From the NCBI RefSeq assembly GCF_900116685.1, contig NZ_FPBL01000002.1:124001-188000 (forward strand): 64,000 bases of DNA, in the 5' to 3' direction. Both the position numbers and the translations under genes were made by a program. Position 1 is the stretch's first letter. Each line of letters begins with the position of its first letter. Shown piece by piece: positions 22,839 to 51,243 of this stretch. The DNA is from Nitrosomonas eutropha. Its GTDB lineage: Bacteria > Pseudomonadota > Gammaproteobacteria > Burkholderiales > Nitrosomonadaceae. Under the pieces are notes generated by a model. It was not told the DNA's origin. It did not search any database and saw only the letters and a list, made by a program, of their open reading frames with translations.

Positions 22839-23783
22839 TTATCTGACCAGGATATTGTCACCTTTACCAGCTTCCGGATCAGCATCATCACTAAACATGA
22901 TTACGGCGATTGCGCCAGTCAATGCATGATTCATGGCATGGTCAACGATTGCATTAGCGCCTGCAACTGGAGAAATCAGATCAAGTGTTGCCGCATCACC
23001 TGGTCCAATCGTATAGGATTGCAATGCATACTGGACATTCTTGGGATTTCCACTGGCGTAGACATTTTCCCAGATCCCGGCGATAGGATGCAGTGAGGAA
23101 AATTCATTGGGTCCAGCGTTGACAAAGTAGATACGAACCCGCTCACCCGGCTTGGCTTGCAACCAGCGTGTCGCTTCCGGATCATGTACCGGATCGTATT
23201 TGAAAACGCCACCATTAAAAACGGCATTGGACCACTGATTCTTCATCATGGCTGTTTTGTCATCCGGATTTTCGTAGTGCTCGGCCTGAATCAGCACATA
23301 TTCACGATCAGCCTTGGGCAAAGCATTCTCATCCTTCGGATCGACAATAATAACGCCATACATACCACGGGCGATATGCTGAATCATCGGATCCGAACCA
23401 CAGTGATAAAAGAACACACCTGGATTATCAGCAGTAAAAGTGAATTTTTTTGTTTCGCCTGGTTTGACAGAATCAAAATCCGTTACTACGTCCACTCTGG
23501 CGGCATGAAAATCCATACTATGTGAGTTTTTATTACTTTCTTCATTCACCAGAGTAAATTCGACTGTGTCACCTTCAGTAACACGCACAACCGGACCCGG
23601 AACAACACCACCAAAAGTCCATGCATGATAGGTGCTGCCCTTATTATCGTAGGCCACATCTTTTTCCACTGCATGAATCGTGACTGGTACCGTTTTAGCT
23701 ACGGCTTCTGCATGAAATCCTGGCAGGGCAACACTGGCTGCCAGTGCAGCAAAACTTGCATTAAATAATTTCTTATATTTCAT
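22839..23783 (-). CDS. nirK: Copper-containing nitrite reductase NirK
   Basis: A 314-residue periplasmic enzyme reducing nitrite to NO. A signal peptide covers about residues 1-29. Two cupredoxin domains carry the copper ligands: type 1 site His88, Cys128, His136, Met141 (SHSMDFHAA, FFYHCGSDPMIQHIARGMYG); type 2 site His93, His127 and His282 (VDHAMNH). Asp91 in HSMDFH and His232 in SLHPIAG match the catalytic acid and proton-relay residues of the family. It is the last gene of the ncgABC-nirK operon in which accessory electron-transfer proteins precede it. In ammonia oxidisers NirK affects ammonia oxidation efficiency and nitrite tolerance. The ribosome site is AGAGGAAG. Confidence 0.96.
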   Translation of the reverse strand: MKYKKLFNASFAALAASVALPGFHAEAVAKTVPVTIHAVEKDVAYDNKGSTYHAWTFGGVVPGPVVRVTEGDTVEFTLVNEESNKNSHSMDFHAARVDVVTDFDSVKPGETKKFTFTADNPGVFFYHCGSDPMIQHIARGMYGVIIVDPKDENALPKADREYVLIQAEHYENPDDKTAMMKNQWSNAVFNGGVFKYDPVHDPEATRWLQAKPGERVRIYFVNAGPNEFSSLHPIAGIWENVYASGNPKNVQYALQSYTIGPGDAATLDLISPVAGANAIVDHAMNHALTGAIAVIMFSDDADPEAGKGDNILVR

Positions 23784-23824
23784 ATTATTTTCTTCCTCTA
23801 CTTTATTTACAGATCAGCTTTTAA

Positions 23825-24208
23825 TTAATTTGAACCACACTTACAGATATGACGCAGGTAGGCAGCCAGCTGATCAACCTCTTCATCACTGAAAATTTCT
23901 CCCCAGGCTGGCATCAACACTGATTTATTGGCGGCAAGACCTCCTTTCTTGATTACTTCGATAATCTCGTCGTTGGGAATATCACCCATACCCTTCGGAT
24001 CGCTATGATCGCGCGGCTGAACAGATATAAAAGTACTGTTAAGACCATTGCCATCACGATCGGCACCATGACATTGTGCACAATACGTATCGTAGAGTTT
24101 TTCGGCATGTTTAAACTGGTCATCTGCTGCAGAAACTGGCGTAGCCAGTGATCCTAAAAAGATCAAACTCATTCCTGCAAGCAGTGAAACAGAACGACTG
24201 ATATTCAT
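23825..24208 (-). CDS. ncgC: Monohaem cytochrome c NcgC
   Basis: A 127-residue protein with a signal peptide (cleavage near VSAADD, residue 28) and one haem-binding motif CAQCH (Cys43, Cys46, His47). The downstream SVLMPAWGEIF holds the likely Met axial ligand, as in class I cytochromes c. It probably passes electrons in the periplasm to or from NirK or NcgA. Its start overlaps the ncgB stop by one base (TAATG), so translation is coupled. Confidence 0.9.
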   Translation of the reverse strand: MNISRSVSLLAGMSLIFLGSLATPVSAADDQFKHAEKLYDTYCAQCHGADRDGNGLNSTFISVQPRDHSDPKGMGDIPNDEIIEVIKKGGLAANKSVLMPAWGEIFSDEEVDQLAAYLRHICKCGSN

Positions 24209-24906
24209 TATTTACCCTCCTTTCCTTTCAATTGAGCAATATAGCCGGTCAGATTCTGCAAATCCTGCTCGGAAATTTTGAGTTTTGGCATCCAGATACC
24301 CTTATCAATTTTCTGCGGATCTTTGATATAGCTGTAAATGAAATCAGGCTGTAAACGGTCACCAGCTGTTTCTAGGCTCGAGCCAGATAACCCACCCTTT
24401 CCATCACCGGTTGAATGGCAGGCATAACAGCCACGCAGTTTGGTGAAGAGCATTTTTGCCATTGGAGATGGTTTCTTGCCTGCATCGTATTTTCCTGTCT
24501 CGATCAACCCTTCTGGTCCTTTCAGGGCCAGCAAGGCATCAGCAGCTGCTTCAGCATCGGCCTGTGCCAGTTTTGGATGTACCGTGAGCGTAGACTCATC
24601 CACAACATCCGTCTTATCACCCTTCTTGATATGTTTGCGATAGAACTCACCAGCCGGGCGAATTCTGGCCGGATCCTGCAGCCATTTCACCAGCCATGGC
24701 TTGTTAAATTTAACTCCGGCGTAATAAAGATCCGGCCCTTTACGTTCCCACAAACGATCCAGGGAAGTGTTTTCCGGCTGGGTCAGCGCATGACAGGAAG
24801 CGCATTGTGATTGCAGTATTGCGGATCCGTCCGCAGCGGAGGCTGTCAGCGATGATGCAAGAAAACCTGCACCAATCATCGCCGCAAGCAAATAGGCTTT
24901 CATCAT
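24208..24906 (-). CDS. ncgB: Dihaem cytochrome c NcgB
   Basis: A 232-residue periplasmic protein with a signal peptide (about 1-25) and two CxxCH motifs: CASCH (35-39) and CYACH (160-164), one in each half. Each half is a small cytochrome c domain. It lies between the multicopper oxidase ncgA and ncgC in the nirK operon, as in Nitrosomonas europaea. It is likely an electron carrier between the inner membrane pool or other cytochromes and the copper enzymes; the exact partner is not known from sequence. Confidence 0.9.
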   Translation of the reverse strand: MMKAYLLAAMIGAGFLASSLTASAADGSAILQSQCASCHALTQPENTSLDRLWERKGPDLYYAGVKFNKPWLVKWLQDPARIRPAGEFYRKHIKKGDKTDVVDESTLTVHPKLAQADAEAAADALLALKGPEGLIETGKYDAGKKPSPMAKMLFTKLRGCYACHSTGDGKGGLSGSSLETAGDRLQPDFIYSYIKDPQKIDKGIWMPKLKISEQDLQNLTGYIAQLKGKEGK

Positions 24907-24943
24907 ATTTCTTCTCCTTTGGTTGTTGTATTACACATACACA

Positions 24944-26005
24944 TCATTCTTCGATGAGTTCCCCTTTGAAAACTTTGGAATTGTGCATTCCGAAGTCTTT
25001 TTTCAGAGATTCTTCATAGTAGAAATCAGGTACAAATTTTTTGTCTTTCCATACATAGAAATCGTGGTCAAGCCCGACTTCCTCATACTCAATGGTTGTC
25101 ATGATTCCACCGTCAGGCTTGTCTCCATTGGTGGTATGCGTATCAACGTGATCATGTATCATCCATAAACCAGGGTTATCCATTTCGAGGATAACGTCAT
25201 AACGTTCGCCCGGGCCGATGAGGACGGTATCACCGAGGATCGGATTGGCCAATGGGAATCCATCCTTGAATACAATTTGCGAGATATGTCCGTGGGTATG
25301 AATGGCGTGAACATGATCCCCTGCACCGATGAGGCGTAATCGAATCACATCACCTTTTTTGACACGTATTGGCTGTGTTTCGGGGAAAGATTTACCATTG
25401 ATGGTGTAGTAATCAAATACATCTCCTGGAATACCGCCTTCGCCTGGCTTGTGTGCCCAGGACGATACCCAATCGGAAAGCATCATGATGTATTCCTTAG
25501 TTACCCTTTTCTCGATCGGAAGAGGATTTTTCGGTTCCACAATGAAGGGTCCCCACATGCCACGCATGGTAACGTGTTCATTAACGTTGACGTGGCAGTG
25601 ATACCACATGGTGCCGGAAGGTCCTGCCTTGAATTTATAAGTAAACGTATCACCAGGCTCTATCGCATGCTGGGTAGCGTGAGGAACGCCATCGTTCTGC
25701 CAGGAGCCATGCTGAAGCATGCCGTGCCAGTGGATGGTATGTGGCAGCGTGGTCATGTTGGTCACGTTTACTACGACGTCATCGTCTTCCTTGACGTGAA
25801 TAAGCGGCGCAGGAACCTGGCCATTAAAGGCAAATGTGTGAAAATCTCTCTTGCCGACCAGAACGATCCGGGTATCTTCGATTGACATATCGAATTCACG
25901 TTTTTCGGCCCAGCTTGTTGCAGGAATCATCACCAGTGCATACAGTCCAAGAATGATGCCGATGATGAATCGGTAATGCGGAAATATCGAATTTGAATTT
26001 CTCAT
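24944..26005 (-). CDS. ncgA: Two-domain multicopper oxidase NcgA (blue copper oxidase)
   Basis: A 353-residue exported protein with a hydrophobic N-terminus (about 12-33). Domain 1 carries HTIHWHG (89-95) and WYHCHVNVNEHVTMRGM (134-150), including Cys137, the type 1 copper ligand, plus trinuclear-centre His residues. Domain 2 has HAIHTHGH and MIHDHVDTHT but no Cys, so the type 1 copper is only in domain 1, the type C two-domain pattern that forms trimers. It oxidises a small reductant with O2; it is the first gene of the ncgABC-nirK operon and lies just behind the NsrR-controlled promoter. Confidence 0.93.
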   Translation of the reverse strand: MRNSNSIFPHYRFIIGIILGLYALVMIPATSWAEKREFDMSIEDTRIVLVGKRDFHTFAFNGQVPAPLIHVKEDDDVVVNVTNMTTLPHTIHWHGMLQHGSWQNDGVPHATQHAIEPGDTFTYKFKAGPSGTMWYHCHVNVNEHVTMRGMWGPFIVEPKNPLPIEKRVTKEYIMMLSDWVSSWAHKPGEGGIPGDVFDYYTINGKSFPETQPIRVKKGDVIRLRLIGAGDHVHAIHTHGHISQIVFKDGFPLANPILGDTVLIGPGERYDVILEMDNPGLWMIHDHVDTHTTNGDKPDGGIMTTIEYEEVGLDHDFYVWKDKKFVPDFYYEESLKKDFGMHNSKVFKGELIEE

Positions 26006-26112
26006 AAATCGGTCCTTTTAGTGTATATTTAATACGCCTTTGATGCACAAAACTCTCTTAGATACTGTGGTAATACCTCATCAACACTTGATAGATCCCT
26101 CCTTGCAGCGAT

Positions 26113-26137
26113 AAAGATATATTTAGAATGTATCTTT
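26113..26137. promoter_or_regulatory. NsrR operator of the ncgABC-nirK operon
   Basis: A 25-base near-palindrome: AAAGATATATTT (26113-26124), one A, then GAATGTATCTTT (26126-26137). It matches the NsrR consensus of two AAGATGYATTT half-sites as 11-1-11. It starts a few bases downstream of the predicted -10 box on the minus strand, so bound NsrR would cover the transcription start. The site is 108 bases upstream of ncgA. Confidence 0.85.
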
Positions 26138-26143
26138 GTGCGA

Positions 26144-26171
26144 ATTTTACTTATATCAATCCAATTGTCAA
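26144..26171 (-). promoter_or_regulatory. Sigma-70 promoter of ncgABC-nirK
   Basis: On the minus strand TTGACA (26171-26166) and TAAAAT (26149-26144) are 16 bases apart. The start of transcription would fall inside the NsrR operator at about 26137. This layout fits direct repression relieved by NO. Confidence 0.68.
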
Positions 26172-26294
26172 TAACTTTTATCGGGGGAAAACGAAATAAT
26201 CAGCCTGTTGCTCCCGGCACCTATGCTTTCCGGGCTGAAATAAAATGTGGGGGTATATTGTTATCCGCGCCTATTACTAAAGGGGGTATGCCTC

Positions 26295-26759
26295 ATGAAA
26301 CTGACGAATTACAGTGATTACGCTTTGCGTATCCTGATTTATCTCGGCTTAAAAAGAGAAAAATTATCTACCATTACTGAAATATCTGATTGTTACCGCA
26401 TTTCACGTAATCATGTCGTCAAGATCGTGCATCATCTAGGCCAACTCGGCTACCTGGATACATTGCGCGGAAAACACGGGGGCATTCGTCTGGCACGAGC
26501 ACCTGAAATGATCAATATCGGTGAAGTAATGCGTCATACGGAAGCTTCCATGGATCTCGTTGAGTGCTTCAGCGACCAGAATGCATGCATTATCTGCGAC
26601 AGTTGTGTGTTGCGCTCAATCATCGCGGAAGCGCTCGCGGCGTTTATGACCGTGCTTGATAGCTATACTCTGGCTGATCTGATGGTTCCTAAACGCCAGT
26701 TAAAAAAGCAACTACAAACTATGGGAATGTTCGATAACCTGACGGATCAATCAAACTGA
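26295..26759 (+). CDS. nsrR: NO-sensing Rrf2 family repressor NsrR
   Basis: A 154-residue Rrf2 regulator; the start at 26295 (MKLTNYSDYALRILIYLGL) is chosen because Rrf2 proteins begin this way and upstream codons lack similarity. The N-terminal winged helix is TITEISDCYRISRNHVVKIV. The iron-sulfur ligand region reads CFSDQNACIICDSC, with Cys91, 98, 101 and 104; NsrR normally uses three Cys here. NO destroys the cluster and lifts repression. It is divergent from ncgA, with the operator between them. Its last 13 bases overlap the 3' end of tamB on the other strand. Confidence 0.93.
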   Translation: MKLTNYSDYALRILIYLGLKREKLSTITEISDCYRISRNHVVKIVHHLGQLGYLDTLRGKHGGIRLARAPEMINIGEVMRHTEASMDLVECFSDQNACIICDSCVLRSIIAEALAAFMTVLDSYTLADLMVPKRQLKKQLQTMGMFDNLTDQSN

Positions 26760-45738: not shown

Positions 45739-46554
45739 ATGAAACATATGAACAATCTTGAAGCAGCTTTTCACCAGTATTTTGAAATTGTGCATGCCAA
45801 CACACCGGAGTTGCTTAAAGAGGCTTTCAGTTTACGATTCCGAGTTTTGTGCGTACATAACGATATCTCTGGCTTCAATTCAGTAAATTATCCGAACAAA
45901 CTGGAAAGTGACGAATACGATAGTCGCTCTGTGCATCTCTTGCTGCGCCATCGGCCAACCGATACATTTATCGGGACCACTCGCCTGATTCTGCCTGATT
46001 CGCAACACCCGGAAAATAAACTGCCAACCGAGCTGCATACCCGGTTTTATCCTGAATTTCAGGTAGATCCATTATCTCGTAAACATACTGCTGAAATATC
46101 CCGCTTTGCCATATCAAGTAATTTCTTTAAACGCAAGAATGAACACTATACGTTAGCTGGACCTGTTGATATACCCACTCGATCCGTTGACAAACCTCAG
46201 GAACGACGTCATTTTCCTCACCCGATGTTGGCGCTTGTCGTCGGAATTATACAAATATGTGCCCAGTATGAAATTTATCATTTACTTTCATCCATGGAAC
46301 CAGCCTTGAACAAATTACTGGGATTTTACGGCTTGCAATTAAATGCCATTGGCCCATCAACTGATTACCACGGACTTCGCAGCCCTTATCATGTCTGCCT
46401 GCTGGATGTTCTGGATAGAATTTACCGCAATCAGCAAGTGATCTGGGAACTTGTTACTGACCATGGGAATATCTGGCCGGCCGATCTAACTTTTCTGCGT
46501 CAACAAAACAGACTACAACCGGTTGGCTCCGATAGTGTTTGCATACCGGGATAG
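45739..46554 (+). CDS. PEP-CTERM/exosortase system-associated acyltransferase
   Basis: A 271-residue GNAT-fold protein of the exosortase-associated acyltransferase family, distantly like acyl-homoserine lactone synthases. Family landmarks are LKEAFSLRFRVLCVHNDISG, FIGTTRLILPDSQHPENKLP and AEISRFAISSNFFKRKNEHY. Soluble, no signal peptide. Its product is unknown; its constant presence with exosortase genes points to a role in the EPS/PEP-CTERM pathway, perhaps a modified lipid or signal. The GGGGAA ribosome site precedes an ATG shortly followed by a second possible ATG. Confidence 0.88.
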   Translation: MKHMNNLEAAFHQYFEIVHANTPELLKEAFSLRFRVLCVHNDISGFNSVNYPNKLESDEYDSRSVHLLLRHRPTDTFIGTTRLILPDSQHPENKLPTELHTRFYPEFQVDPLSRKHTAEISRFAISSNFFKRKNEHYTLAGPVDIPTRSVDKPQERRHFPHPMLALVVGIIQICAQYEIYHLLSSMEPALNKLLGFYGLQLNAIGPSTDYHGLRSPYHVCLLDVLDRIYRNQQVIWELVTDHGNIWPADLTFLRQQNRLQPVGSDSVCIPG

Positions 46555-46572
46555 CCAATAACATTCACTATT

Positions 46573-47028
46573 GTGACGGGAATTTTTACTTACTGCCTTC
46601 GGGGTATTCTTCTCCCCGCACTGCTAATCATACTTCTTTTCACGGATAATGCCTTATCCTCCGGTGAGGCAGTCGAAGTAATTACTCATCCCGGTACCAA
46701 TGTAAATTATCTTTCCAAGAATTTATTACGTTCTGTCTTTAGTATGCGCCTCAGAACCTGGCAGAACGGTGTACCAATCCGGGTTTTCGTGCTGCCCGAC
46801 GATGCACCGTTACACAATATATTTGCCAAAAAAAAACTCAACGTCTTCCCTTATCAATTACGCTCTGCATGGGATCGCCTGGTCTATTCAGGAACCGGGC
46901 AAGCACCACTTGTCGTGCACTCTGAAGAAGAGATGCGCACAAAAATTGCGACGACACCGGGGTCAATCGGCTATTTAAGTGAAATCAAGATTGATGGAAG
47001 CGTCCAGATCGTTCATATCAATGAATAG
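46573..47028 (+). CDS. Small periplasmic binding protein-like (PstS-type) protein
   Basis: A 151-residue exported protein starting at a GTG at 46573, 18 bases after the acyltransferase stop; a signal peptide covers about residues 8-31. The mature part is a single lobe of the phosphate-binding-protein type: VEVITHPGTNVNYLSKNLLR, SVFSMRLRTWQNGVPIRVFV, RSAWDRLVYSGTGQAPLVVH and TTPGSIGYLSEI, where the GSIGYL segment is typical of PstS-like proteins. At half the usual length it probably is a sensor or accessory protein, not a transporter component; no permease genes are near. Its stop overlaps the next start by 8 bases. Confidence 0.8.
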   Translation: MTGIFTYCLRGILLPALLIILLFTDNALSSGEAVEVITHPGTNVNYLSKNLLRSVFSMRLRTWQNGVPIRVFVLPDDAPLHNIFAKKKLNVFPYQLRSAWDRLVYSGTGQAPLVVHSEEEMRTKIATTPGSIGYLSEIKIDGSVQIVHINE

Positions 47029-48247
47029 CAAAAAGTTTTTCACCAATCTTTTTTTGAGCATCGCGGGGTTACTCCTGACGCTTTCCGCACCTTCCGGATT
47101 TGCCAATGAGCATCAGGGAGTGCAGATTCTGAAGCAGCTGCAGGTACATGGCTTCCTCAGCCAAGGATACATCAAGACAACCGGAAACAATGTTTTCGGT
47201 CACAGCAACAACTCGGGCAGCTTTGATTTCAGGGAAATTGGCCTGACAGCCTCTCTGCGCCCACTGCCCGGGTTGCAACTTTCCGGGCAATTACTTCATC
47301 GCAGGGCGGGAGAAGGCAGTGACGGTGGCATCCATATCGATTTTGGCTTCCTTGATTACAATTTTATTAATATGCCTGAGGTAGAGCTCGGCGTACGCCT
47401 GGGCAGAATGAAGAATCCATTTGGGTTCTATAACGATACCCGTGATGTGCCTTTTACCCGACCAAGTATACTGTTACCTCAATCAATCTATTTCGATCGG
47501 ACCCGTAACCTGGCACTGGCTTCGGATGGTGTTCAGCTGTACGGAGAATCACGTACAGATTGGGGAAACATTACCATTCAGCTTGGCGCTGCTTTTCCGC
47601 AGGTGGATGACAAAGATTCCGAAACATCTATTTTTGGTCATATGACCCCCGTCCGGGGAGAGCTGAAAAGCAGGCTCTCATATATCGGCCGCATCCTCTA
47701 TGAGCTACCTGACGGGCGGCTACGCCTGGCTGTCAGCAGCGCTCAACTCAATGTTGGCTATGACCCCAGCCAAAATGATATTTTTGAATCAGGTTCATTC
47801 AGATTTTCTCCCCTGATTCTGTCAGCGCAATACAATGCAGAACGCTGGAGCATAACGTCAGAATATGCGTTACGTTATTCTCGTCGTCATGGGTTTGGCA
47901 ATCCCAGACTTGATCAGAGTTCTACCGGGGATAGCTTCTATCTGCAGGGTATCTACCGTTTTTTACCAAACTGGGAAGCCGTATTACGCTACGATCTACT
48001 TTTCGCCAACAAAAAGGATCGCAATGGCAAGAAGTTTTTGGCGGCGAGCAGTCATCCGGCATACAGTCAGTACGCCAGAGATCTGACGGTAGGATTACGC
48101 TGGAATATAACCCCATCCATTATGCTGAGTACTGAATATCATCGGATCAATGGAGCCGCCTGGCTTTCTCCACTGGATAATCCGGACATTGACAGTGCCG
48201 AGAAAAACTGGAATCTGTTTGCCGCACAAATTTCCTACCGGTTCTGA
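47021..48247 (+). CDS. Outer membrane porin-like beta-barrel protein
   Basis: A 408-residue protein from the ATG at 47021, chosen because a signal peptide (MNSKKFFTNLFLSIAGLLLT) begins there, inside the last codons of the preceding gene. The mature part is an alternating beta-strand protein ending in Tyr-Arg-Phe, as in outer-membrane porins. Strand-like segments include FDFREIGLTASLRPLPGLQL, VELGVRLGRMKNPFGFYNDT, LTVGLRWNITPSIMLSTEYH. The GRMKNPFGFYN segment resembles anion- or phosphate-type porins and other porins of unknown specificity. The gene's stop overlaps the next ATG by one base. Confidence 0.85.
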   Translation: MNSKKFFTNLFLSIAGLLLTLSAPSGFANEHQGVQILKQLQVHGFLSQGYIKTTGNNVFGHSNNSGSFDFREIGLTASLRPLPGLQLSGQLLHRRAGEGSDGGIHIDFGFLDYNFINMPEVELGVRLGRMKNPFGFYNDTRDVPFTRPSILLPQSIYFDRTRNLALASDGVQLYGESRTDWGNITIQLGAAFPQVDDKDSETSIFGHMTPVRGELKSRLSYIGRILYELPDGRLRLAVSSAQLNVGYDPSQNDIFESGSFRFSPLILSAQYNAERWSITSEYALRYSRRHGFGNPRLDQSSTGDSFYLQGIYRFLPNWEAVLRYDLLFANKKDRNGKKFLAASSHPAYSQYARDLTVGLRWNITPSIMLSTEYHRINGAAWLSPLDNPDIDSAEKNWNLFAAQISYRF

Positions 48248-51198
48248 TGCAAAATCAAGTGAAACCTGCCGTTTCCGAGGAGCCAGTTGATTTAAAAAAT
48301 ACTGGCCATAAATTTTCCCGGATATTTGTCGGACTAAGCTGGAAAATTTCCCTGCTGAGCAGCCTGATTTTGCTGCTTGTGGTAACAGCGTTCAGCATGA
48401 TCAACTACAACAGTCTGATCGACAGCATTGATCAGCAAAGAGAAACGCAATACCAGCGCTACGCTAGAGAAATAGAAAGCCTGATCGGGCGCAATTCTGA
48501 AAATCTACATGGACTTGTCAGAATTATTCCCTATCTGAAAGGAATGAAAACCAGCCTGCAGGCAGATGATTCTCAAGAAATACTCACCACCTTTGAACGG
48601 TACTGGACATTGTTCCAGATTCAGAGTGATATCGAAGATATCCGTTTTTATAACTCTTCCGGATCATTGCTCGCACAGTGGGGTAATTTTGATGCCAATG
48701 CATACCGGGACAATCTTATTCTTGAGCATGTTCGTGAAGTCAATGCACGTGAACAGCCTGCTACGCTGATGATCTGTGTTGAAAGCTGTACCCAATATAT
48801 TATTGAACCATTGCTGATTAATGGAATACGAACGGGTGCCGTTGTCATTGGTTCTTCTCTGGTTGATGTTTTTTTAAATTTCAAACGTGCTTCCGGTTCT
48901 GATATTGGCTTGTTTGTTGGATATGCCGCTAATGACTCACACAGCATACTGTCAGATAACGCTGCTTTTATGGGGATACCCGAATGGAATGTCAGTATTA
49001 CGGCTCTGACAAATAGCGTCAAAAATCTCACCATCCTGAGTAGAGCAGCCAAAAGCTACCCGAATCTTGCTAAGATCGAACAGGGTATCCAATATGAATG
49101 GAATAACAGACATTATCAGATCAAGTTGCTCCCGTTGCACGGTATCCGTATACCTGACCAAGGGCAGCTGGTTATCATTACCGAAGTAACTGATACTGTC
49201 CAGGCAATCCAGAATTCCATCTGGCGTATTGTCGTCATCGGGCTGATCGGGATGGTATTTTCAGAGATCATCTTGTTTAGCATGATTTCAAGGCCGCTAT
49301 CCCGCCTCAAATATATCGTATCTCTCCTGCCATTGCTGGCCGGGAGAGGATTTAGCAATTTCCGCAGCGCTCTTTCCTCACGCTGGCGAAAGCGTCGGTT
49401 AAGTGATGAAATTGATCTCCTGCACGATGCATCACTCGCACTTTCACATAAGCTTGAAAAATTGGAAGAGAAAGTTGCCTATCGCACCCGCATGCTGGTT
49501 CAGCAGCGCGACGAACTCAGCAAGGAAAAAGATTTCATTGAGAATCTGCTGGATACCGCACAAGTTATCGTCCTGACACAGGATGCCAGCGGAAAAATAA
49601 TCATGACCAATACATACGGCGAAATACTGACCCGGTATAGTGAAGAGGAACTGCAGGGCAAGCACTTTATGGAACTGCTGGCGCCGGATGGCGAGCAATA
49701 CAACCTGGATGTATATTTACTGGAAATCCGCCAGGGAAATCGCGATCAATTGCGGCATGAAGCAATCGTGCTATGTAAAGATGATTCAAAACGGAATGTT
49801 GCCTGGCTCCATTCTCGCTTGACGTGGCAATCCAAGGATGATCCTTCCGTGATTCTTTCCGTTGGACTCGACATCACCGAGTATAAGCGGGTGGAAGGTC
49901 ATCTAGCGTGGCTTGCTGACCATGATCCACTGACAAACCTGTACAACCGCCGCCGTTTCAGTGAAGAATTGGAGCAGATTCTCAGTTGGGCAGAAAGATA
50001 TCAGCATCCTGGGGCATTACTGTTTTTCGATCTTGATCGATTCAAGTTTGTGAATGACACCAGTGGCCACCAGGCGGGTGACGCGATGTTGAAAATGGTC
50101 GCTGATATGTTATCCCGTACCGTTCGTACTGCTGATATTGCTGCTCGGTTGGGTGGGGATGAATTTGCTGTTATCCTGCCTGAAATTACGCCCGAAGCAG
50201 CCATTGAGGTTGCCAAAAAAATTCTGGCCAGGCTGAATGAAACCCAGCTTTCACTTAATGGCAGAACACACAGTATTTCAGCCAGTATTGGCATTGCGGT
50301 CTTTCCCGAACATGGCAATAATGTTCACGATTTGCTGGCCGCTGCTGACCTCGCAATGTACCAGGCCAAGGAAACGGGACGTGGAACCTGGCATCTGTTT
50401 TCCAGCAATGATCAGTCGCGTGAGCGCGTGCGTACACTGGTTTACTGGAAAGAAAAAATTGAATATGCCAATGCGCATGACCGGTATCTGCTCTATCTGC
50501 AGCCCATTCAAACCTTGCGCGACGGAATAACCCATCATTACGAAGTCTTGCTGCGTATGCAGGATGAAGATGGAACCATTCATTCTCCCGGAGCATTCAT
50601 CCGCGCAGCAGAACACACCGGCCTTATCCATAAAATCGATCATCTGGTGTTACACAAGGCAATTGCATTGGCCGCAAGAATCAATCAAGCAGAAAACAGA
50701 CGTATTGGTCTGTCCATTAACCTGTCAGCACACGCCTTTAACGATCCGGAATTATTACCGACCATCAGCCAGGCGCTTTCAGTTAACCAGATTGATCCTG
50801 GTCTGTTAATGTTTGAAATAACAGAAACAGCCGCCTTGGATAATTTGCCTGGGACACGCGGCCTTTTGTACGATCTCAAGCAACTTGGTTGTGGCTTTGT
50901 ACTGGATGATTTTGGGGTGGGGTTCTCTTCCTTCTACTATCTTCGCGAATTGCCGGTTGATGCGGTCAAGATCGATGGCTCGTTTATCCGTAACCTGGCG
51001 AGCAATCCCGATGATCAGATACTTGTCAGTGCATTGTGCAGCGTAGCAAAGGGATTTGGTAAAAAGATCACTGCAGAATTTGTTGAAAACAAGGAAGTAC
51101 TAAGCATCCTTGATAAGCTGGAGGTTGATTTTGCACAGGGCTATTACATCGGCATGCCAACCTTGGCAGAAAAACTCTTTCCTGATACTAACGACTAA
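48247..51198 (+). CDS. Membrane-bound PAS-GGDEF-EAL c-di-GMP protein
   Basis: A 983-residue protein. Transmembrane helices at about 34-56 and 318-341 enclose a periplasmic sensor domain of about 260 residues. A coiled coil and a PAS domain (about 430-545) follow. The GGDEF domain has an intact site GGDEF (636-640) and an RTAD allosteric I-site five residues before it. The EAL domain keeps EVLLR, SINLS, FEITET, DDFGVGFSS, VKIDGSF and AQGYYIG; the usual AEGVE reads AEFVE. Both synthesis and breakdown of c-di-GMP seem possible. It is coupled to the upstream PBP-like and porin genes, so the periplasmic domain may read the state of those proteins. Confidence 0.92.
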   Translation: MQNQVKPAVSEEPVDLKNTGHKFSRIFVGLSWKISLLSSLILLLVVTAFSMINYNSLIDSIDQQRETQYQRYAREIESLIGRNSENLHGLVRIIPYLKGMKTSLQADDSQEILTTFERYWTLFQIQSDIEDIRFYNSSGSLLAQWGNFDANAYRDNLILEHVREVNAREQPATLMICVESCTQYIIEPLLINGIRTGAVVIGSSLVDVFLNFKRASGSDIGLFVGYAANDSHSILSDNAAFMGIPEWNVSITALTNSVKNLTILSRAAKSYPNLAKIEQGIQYEWNNRHYQIKLLPLHGIRIPDQGQLVIITEVTDTVQAIQNSIWRIVVIGLIGMVFSEIILFSMISRPLSRLKYIVSLLPLLAGRGFSNFRSALSSRWRKRRLSDEIDLLHDASLALSHKLEKLEEKVAYRTRMLVQQRDELSKEKDFIENLLDTAQVIVLTQDASGKIIMTNTYGEILTRYSEEELQGKHFMELLAPDGEQYNLDVYLLEIRQGNRDQLRHEAIVLCKDDSKRNVAWLHSRLTWQSKDDPSVILSVGLDITEYKRVEGHLAWLADHDPLTNLYNRRRFSEELEQILSWAERYQHPGALLFFDLDRFKFVNDTSGHQAGDAMLKMVADMLSRTVRTADIAARLGGDEFAVILPEITPEAAIEVAKKILARLNETQLSLNGRTHSISASIGIAVFPEHGNNVHDLLAAADLAMYQAKETGRGTWHLFSSNDQSRERVRTLVYWKEKIEYANAHDRYLLYLQPIQTLRDGITHHYEVLLRMQDEDGTIHSPGAFIRAAEHTGLIHKIDHLVLHKAIALAARINQAENRRIGLSINLSAHAFNDPELLPTISQALSVNQIDPGLLMFEITETAALDNLPGTRGLLYDLKQLGCGFVLDDFGVGFSSFYYLRELPVDAVKIDGSFIRNLASNPDDQILVSALCSVAKGFGKKITAEFVENKEVLSILDKLEVDFAQGYYIGMPTLAEKLFPDTND

Positions 51199-51223: not shown

Positions 51224-51243
51224 AACCGCCCCGAGGGGCGGTT
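51224..51243. terminator. Bidirectional terminator
   Basis: AACCGCCC (51224-51231) and GGGCGGTT (51236-51243) form an 8-bp stem around CGAG. A five-A run before it acts as a T-run for the minus strand, so it likely ends the small lipoprotein gene too; it lies 26 bases after the GGDEF-EAL stop. Confidence 0.75.

Follow-up and report, generated by a model that had tools for sequence, protein, structure and literature searches.

A predicted N-acyl amino acid synthase gene recurs beside a putative VpvABC-like envelope sensor in ammonia-oxidising bacteria

Described systems and the Nitrosomonas eutropha locus

The closest described system is VpvABC of Vibrio cholerae. In the available part of its description it consists of a porin, a periplasmic binding protein and a diguanylate cyclase, and the vpv operon is reported in Gamma- and Betaproteobacteria, with vpvAB also found without vpvC (PMC12456836). 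The accessible sections of two reports tie VpvABC to the biofilm matrix (PMC12456836, PMC8754643). In V. cholerae E7946, deletion of vpvABC is described, in the same portion of the second report, as leaving the c-di-GMP level and rugose switching unaffected (PMC8754643), and the effects of systems of this kind may therefore be small. In NspS-MbaA, known from Vibrio cholerae and Sinorhizobium, a periplasmic binding protein likewise acts on a membrane c-di-GMP enzyme in control of biofilm and EPS (PMC9993111, PMC8967002).

We analysed a window of 64,000 nucleotides from Nitrosomonas eutropha (contig NZ_FPBL01000002.1, positions 124,001 to 188,000), in which an initial annotation had described three overlapping genes, whose products it read as a small periplasmic protein, a barrel in the outer membrane and a c-di-GMP enzyme. 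The overlaps are confirmed, at 8 bases between genes 1 and 2 and 1 base between genes 2 and 3 (Table 1). An acyltransferase gene that had been overlooked is part of the same conserved block. Upstream of the block, a scan of its strand for the sigma-54 pattern gave no site, and a sigma-70 scan stayed at chance level. The 2.34-Mb genome to which the window belongs has only six GGDEF matches, so the block's enzyme represents a large share of its c-di-GMP network. At positions 22839-26759 of the window there are genes of the copper oxidase type together with a diheme-type cytochrome and a regulator of the Rrf2 type; we take this group to resemble the nirK cluster of Nitrosomonas.

Table 1. Features of the four-gene block in window coordinates
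Feature	Position	Strand	Remarks
Acyltransferase gene, TIGR03694	45739..46554	+	ends 18 bases upstream of gene 1
Gene 1, small periplasmic protein	46573..47028	+	GTG start, 151 aa
Gene 2, porin-like outer-membrane beta-barrel	47021..48247	+	ATG start, 408 aa
Gene 3, membrane c-di-GMP enzyme, TM - dCache_3 - TM - PAS - GGDEF - EAL	48247..51198	+	ATG start, 983 aa
Periplasmic dCache_3 sensor domain, residues 57-317	48415..49197	+	AlphaFold pLDDT 89.7
Invariant CX3C pair (C177, C181) on a beta-hairpin turn of the sensor domain	48775..48789	+	flanked by strands in the AlphaFold model
PAS domain	49537..49881	+	Pfam
GGDEF domain, GGDEF and RxxD inhibitory site intact	49915..50385	+	RTADIAARLGGDEF at residue 627
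EAL domain	50461..51159	+	metal and catalytic motifs EVLLR, NLS, EITE, DDFG, KID, EFVE, QG
Likely terminator hairpin	51224..51243		downstream of block; 8-pair GC-rich stem; weak evidence, site number not above shuffles

The initial annotation was not aware of any described system composed in just this way. That statement was wrong, because VpvABC has been published with the same three parts and, as far as the available text goes, the same relay model, in which solute passing the porin reaches the enzyme through the binding protein (PMC12456836). By that partial description, genes for a porin, a periplasmic binding protein and a membrane-bound c-di-GMP enzyme are clustered in both loci (PMC12456836). 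They differ in gene order: as far as the names used in the accessible vpv text imply, VpvABC has the porin first and the binding protein second, whereas the binding protein comes first here; the porin-first order is seen in another set of relatives. VpvC appears in the accessible sections of its report as a HAMP-GGDEF protein without EAL, the GGDEF domain ending at residue 411, whereas the enzyme here is dCache_3-PAS-GGDEF-EAL and has no HAMP (PMC12051071). The vpv descriptions, in their available parts, mention no synthase gene, whereas one is present beside the trio here. NspS-MbaA also differs, since NspS binds polyamines and the pair has no barrel, while only one PstS lobe is found here (PMC9993111, PMC8967002). 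Judging by its make-up, we regard the locus as a variant of the VpvABC kind and do not file it as an orthologue.

Conservation of the trio and its fourth partner

We found that the three genes, whose joint occurrence elsewhere the initial annotation had made the test of its proposal, recur together in other genomes (Gammaproteobacteria). Within a class sample of 229 genomes, the small protein is matched in 54 (own genome included); 23 genomes match the barrel and 18 the sensor domain. Leaving aside the genome of the window, there are 18 sensor-domain matches, and 12 of them belong to a block of small protein, barrel and enzyme (in one of these the contig begins within the barrel). Two more stand beside the small protein only, one is divergent in the same locus, one is at a contig break, and two are weak and stand alone. 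At genus level, 34/37 genomes (own included) carry the small protein at E below 1e-25. All 20 genus neighbourhoods that were fetched contain the barrel and the enzyme, and 19 contain the small protein with the acyltransferase upstream; in the exception, the contig ends inside the small-protein gene. Named contigs were scanned with a 10-row alignment, and the best 80 loci come almost entirely from Nitrosomonas, Nitrosospira or Nitrosovibrio. The small-protein frame is present in 79 of these 80; in 75 the acyltransferase directly precedes it, and the full trio is seen in 73. Contig ends are near in two of the four named loci without the upstream acyltransferase and in five of the six without the full trio. 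The order small protein - barrel - dCache_3 enzyme is thus conserved across many families and in nearly all ammonia oxidisers.

The acyltransferase belongs to TIGR03694 (266.9 bits, curated cut-off 111.95), and its E119 (46093-46095) lies within the motif AEISRF, the E-x-S-R motif being present in 153/155 relatives. We take TIGR03694 to be the N-acyl amino acid synthase family of Craig, Cherry and Brady (2011). It is present in 9/19 sampled barrel-bearing genomes (co-occurrence, Fisher p=7e-5) and in six of these nine, which are distant genomes, it adjoins the trio (6 or more: binomial about 5e-14, an estimate that assumes independent genomes and random gene position). The other 10/19 trio-bearing genomes lack TIGR03694; hence, the synthase is not required by every version of the trio. 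Where linked, the synthase lies upstream on the same strand in the ammonia oxidisers and three further loci, is divergent in three loci, and is downstream on a plasmid of Halomonas PA16-9 (192.9 bits). In the synthase tree, 3 changes suffice for the unlinked label versus 23 in shuffles, and trio-linked synthases fall in three separate places, although a single ancient linkage followed by losses could also give this pattern. Nor do the synthase-linked trios form one clade in the barrel tree, a scatter compatible with repeated gain or loss. The synthase is a newly found fourth partner, repeatedly linked to the trio, and among the papers listed in our literature search on N-acyl amino acids and c-di-GMP, we saw no description of a TIGR03694 synthase next to a VpvABC-like trio.

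Overall, we consider it probable that the four-gene unit combines a predicted N-acyl amino acid synthase with a VpvABC-like three-component envelope sensor that relays to a c-di-GMP output. A functional tie between such a sensor and a lipo-amino-acid synthase is the best-supported reading of the locus.

Components of the putative sensor and the proposed relay

The small protein had been described as a half-sized periplasmic binding-type protein, and the structural model bears this out as one lobe of PstS (AlphaFold, pLDDT 91.2). An N-terminal signal helix is predicted. Against Pfam, the protein matches PBP_like_2 only below the cut-off (19.3 bits, E=0.0011), while the best Foldseek matches are PstS targets of 259 residues (from E=4.5e-8; TMq is about 0.6 and TMt 0.36), and in profile alignments it covers PstS lobe 2, from about residue 78 to 190. 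PstS closes two lobes on its ligand, and the 151 residues here amount to about one. The PstS phosphate loop (REDGSGT; R-x-x-G-S-G-T) aligns to VLPDDAPLH (LPDDxPxH in the profile alignments), so that the Arg and SGT ligands are gone. With the loop replaced, phosphate is an unlikely ligand, and phosphate sensing was dropped as the first-choice reading.

These matches bear on an alternative in which the trio senses a nutrient or an ion, such as phosphate by way of a phosphate-type porin and the PstS-like protein, and is co-transcribed with a biosynthetic gene by chance. It would account for the fold and profile matches to PstS, for the Porin_O_P matches of some barrel relatives and for the many trios without a synthase nearby. 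However, the loss of the phosphate loop and of a second lobe that could close on a ligand argues against it, as does the recurrence of synthase adjacency in three arrangements, and we consider this explanation unlikely.

The neighbourhoods of the small protein suggest what it may do. Without the dCache_3 enzyme, the small protein and barrel stand beside a hybrid histidine kinase in one locus, a dCache_2 histidine kinase in another and chemoreceptors in five, and the order in these kinase and chemoreceptor versions is often barrel - small protein. In two further cases the small protein accompanies the enzyme and no barrel is present. Since it pairs with the barrel alone, with the enzyme alone and with other receptors, the distribution suggests that the small protein is what connects the barrel to the receptor. 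The relay through the small protein proposed in the initial annotation agrees with these pairings with porin, enzyme, histidine kinases and chemoreceptors. Duplicated forms also occur: two loci (L056, L207) have the small PstS-like gene in three copies each, some as barrel - small protein pairs, and at L039:3029-8956 the small protein - barrel pair is duplicated in tandem upstream of a single GGDEF-EAL gene. At L062:5952-7354, the small PstS-like protein adjoins a gene of the PF12261 'thermostable hemolysin' family. We take this family to be GNAT-like, and the gene is possibly another acyltransferase linked to the small-protein module.

Gene 2 alone has no Pfam match above the cut-off, and its relatives match Porin_O_P/Porin_4 weakly, in line with the outer-membrane barrel originally assigned. 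It adjoins the small protein in nearly all loci. PDB sequence searches with the barrel and the sensor domain gave no credible match.

The periplasmic domain of the enzyme, originally placed at residues 57-317, is correctly delimited: Pfam assigns dCache_3 (PF14827) to residues 64-316 (E=1.5e-21; 77.6 bits against a gathering cut-off of 25.7), followed by PAS at 431-545 (1.1e-5), GGDEF at 557-713 (9e-50) and EAL at 739-971 (4e-64). Foldseek matches the model of the domain to dCache ligand-binding domains, from E=2.2e-7. Its C177, C181 and P188 are invariant in 105/105 sequences, and the position of the two cysteines about the modelled hairpin turn suggests a possible disulphide or redox switch. 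The GGDEF, ExLxR and DDFG motifs are kept in 94/94 full-length relatives and the RxxD site in 91/94, so both c-di-GMP synthesis and degradation may be possible, judging from these motifs.

In the relay that we propose, a solute would enter the periplasm through the barrel, and the single-lobe PstS-like protein would carry or detect it and dock on the dCache_3 domain. The signal would then cross the membrane to the PAS-GGDEF-EAL output, which would shift c-di-GMP up or down by making or degrading it. The ligand may be related to the product of the synthase, and the output may act on EPS or aggregation.

The synthase product and the exosortase link

What N-acyl amino acids do when they come from exosortase-linked synthases is not clear (PMC4897644), and c-di-GMP networks had, according to a 2022 review, yielded no identified sensor domain for lipids (PMC8846402). 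The recurrent position of a synthase beside a complete envelope sensor offers one testable answer on both points. The synthase product would be a plausible ligand of the trio. More tentatively, and with the odds rather against it, the cell may read its own N-acyl amino acid signal out as c-di-GMP, which would in turn set EPS and aggregation. Ammonia oxidisers may thus make and sense a lipid signal of their own. Such autocrine signalling would resemble BDSF-RpfR and the dCache AI-2 receptors, where a self-made signal shifts c-di-GMP through a PAS or dCache sensor; the ligands and anatomy of those systems are different, and the parallel is one of working and not of family (PMC8846402, PMC7584622). 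If true, DSF and AI-2 signalling would have a lipid-amino-acid counterpart whose receptor resembles neither of theirs. Nearly all ammonia-oxidising bacteria have the block, and it may therefore matter for how flocs and biofilms form in nitrification.

Fusions of such synthases to PilZ have been reported (NAS-PilZ, PMC4897644), which ties them to c-di-GMP. One could also imagine a block for export, in which the barrel and small protein help the N-acyl amino acid to reach the outer membrane. The enzyme would then regulate synthase activity or EPS via c-di-GMP, without sensing of the product. The second TIGR03694 gene of the window's genome, which is followed by a 513-aa Porin_O_P barrel (L202:6361-8944), would suit such a role. 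However, the barrel and small protein are paired more widely with sensors (diguanylate cyclase, kinase, chemoreceptor) than with the synthase, and no PilZ domain was found in the window's synthase against Pfam; an export block thus has, in our estimate, a low probability. Both synthases of this genome lie near a barrel gene.

Returning to the sensor tied to a synthase, its relation to the exosortase system is looser than had been assumed. The available text of two papers cites a link of TIGR03694 N-acyl amino acid synthases to PEP-CTERM/exosortase (PMC4897644, PMC11072679). In Methylomonas LW13, a methanotroph, knockout of the ExoAT synthase abolishes the normal polysaccharide band (PMC11072679). 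The initial annotation had placed the trio next to exosortase accessory genes, and in Nitrosomonas the block does lie downstream of other such genes, but the conserved neighbour is the TIGR03694 acyltransferase alone. That the trio simply belongs to an exosortase/PEP-CTERM EPS regulon and is not specifically linked to the acyltransferase is suggested by this Nitrosomonas arrangement but is quite improbable, because 30 named loci have the block at a distance from any other exosortase genes and because it also occurs in five genomes in which exosortase (PF09721) was not found, some of them draft or metagenome assemblies where absence is not proof. Three of the five (G052, G174 and Nitrosomonas MAG_42, G300) keep the acyltransferase with the full trio, and two (G076, G196) have the acyltransferase, the small protein and the barrel before the contig ends. 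These five genomes indicate that the synthase has a tie to the trio, over and above its tie to the exosortase system. Compared with the exosortase tie known from the accessible literature, the tie seen here is to a c-di-GMP sensor. An AMO/pmoA-family gene is present in G174 and in G028, both of which are probably methanotrophs.
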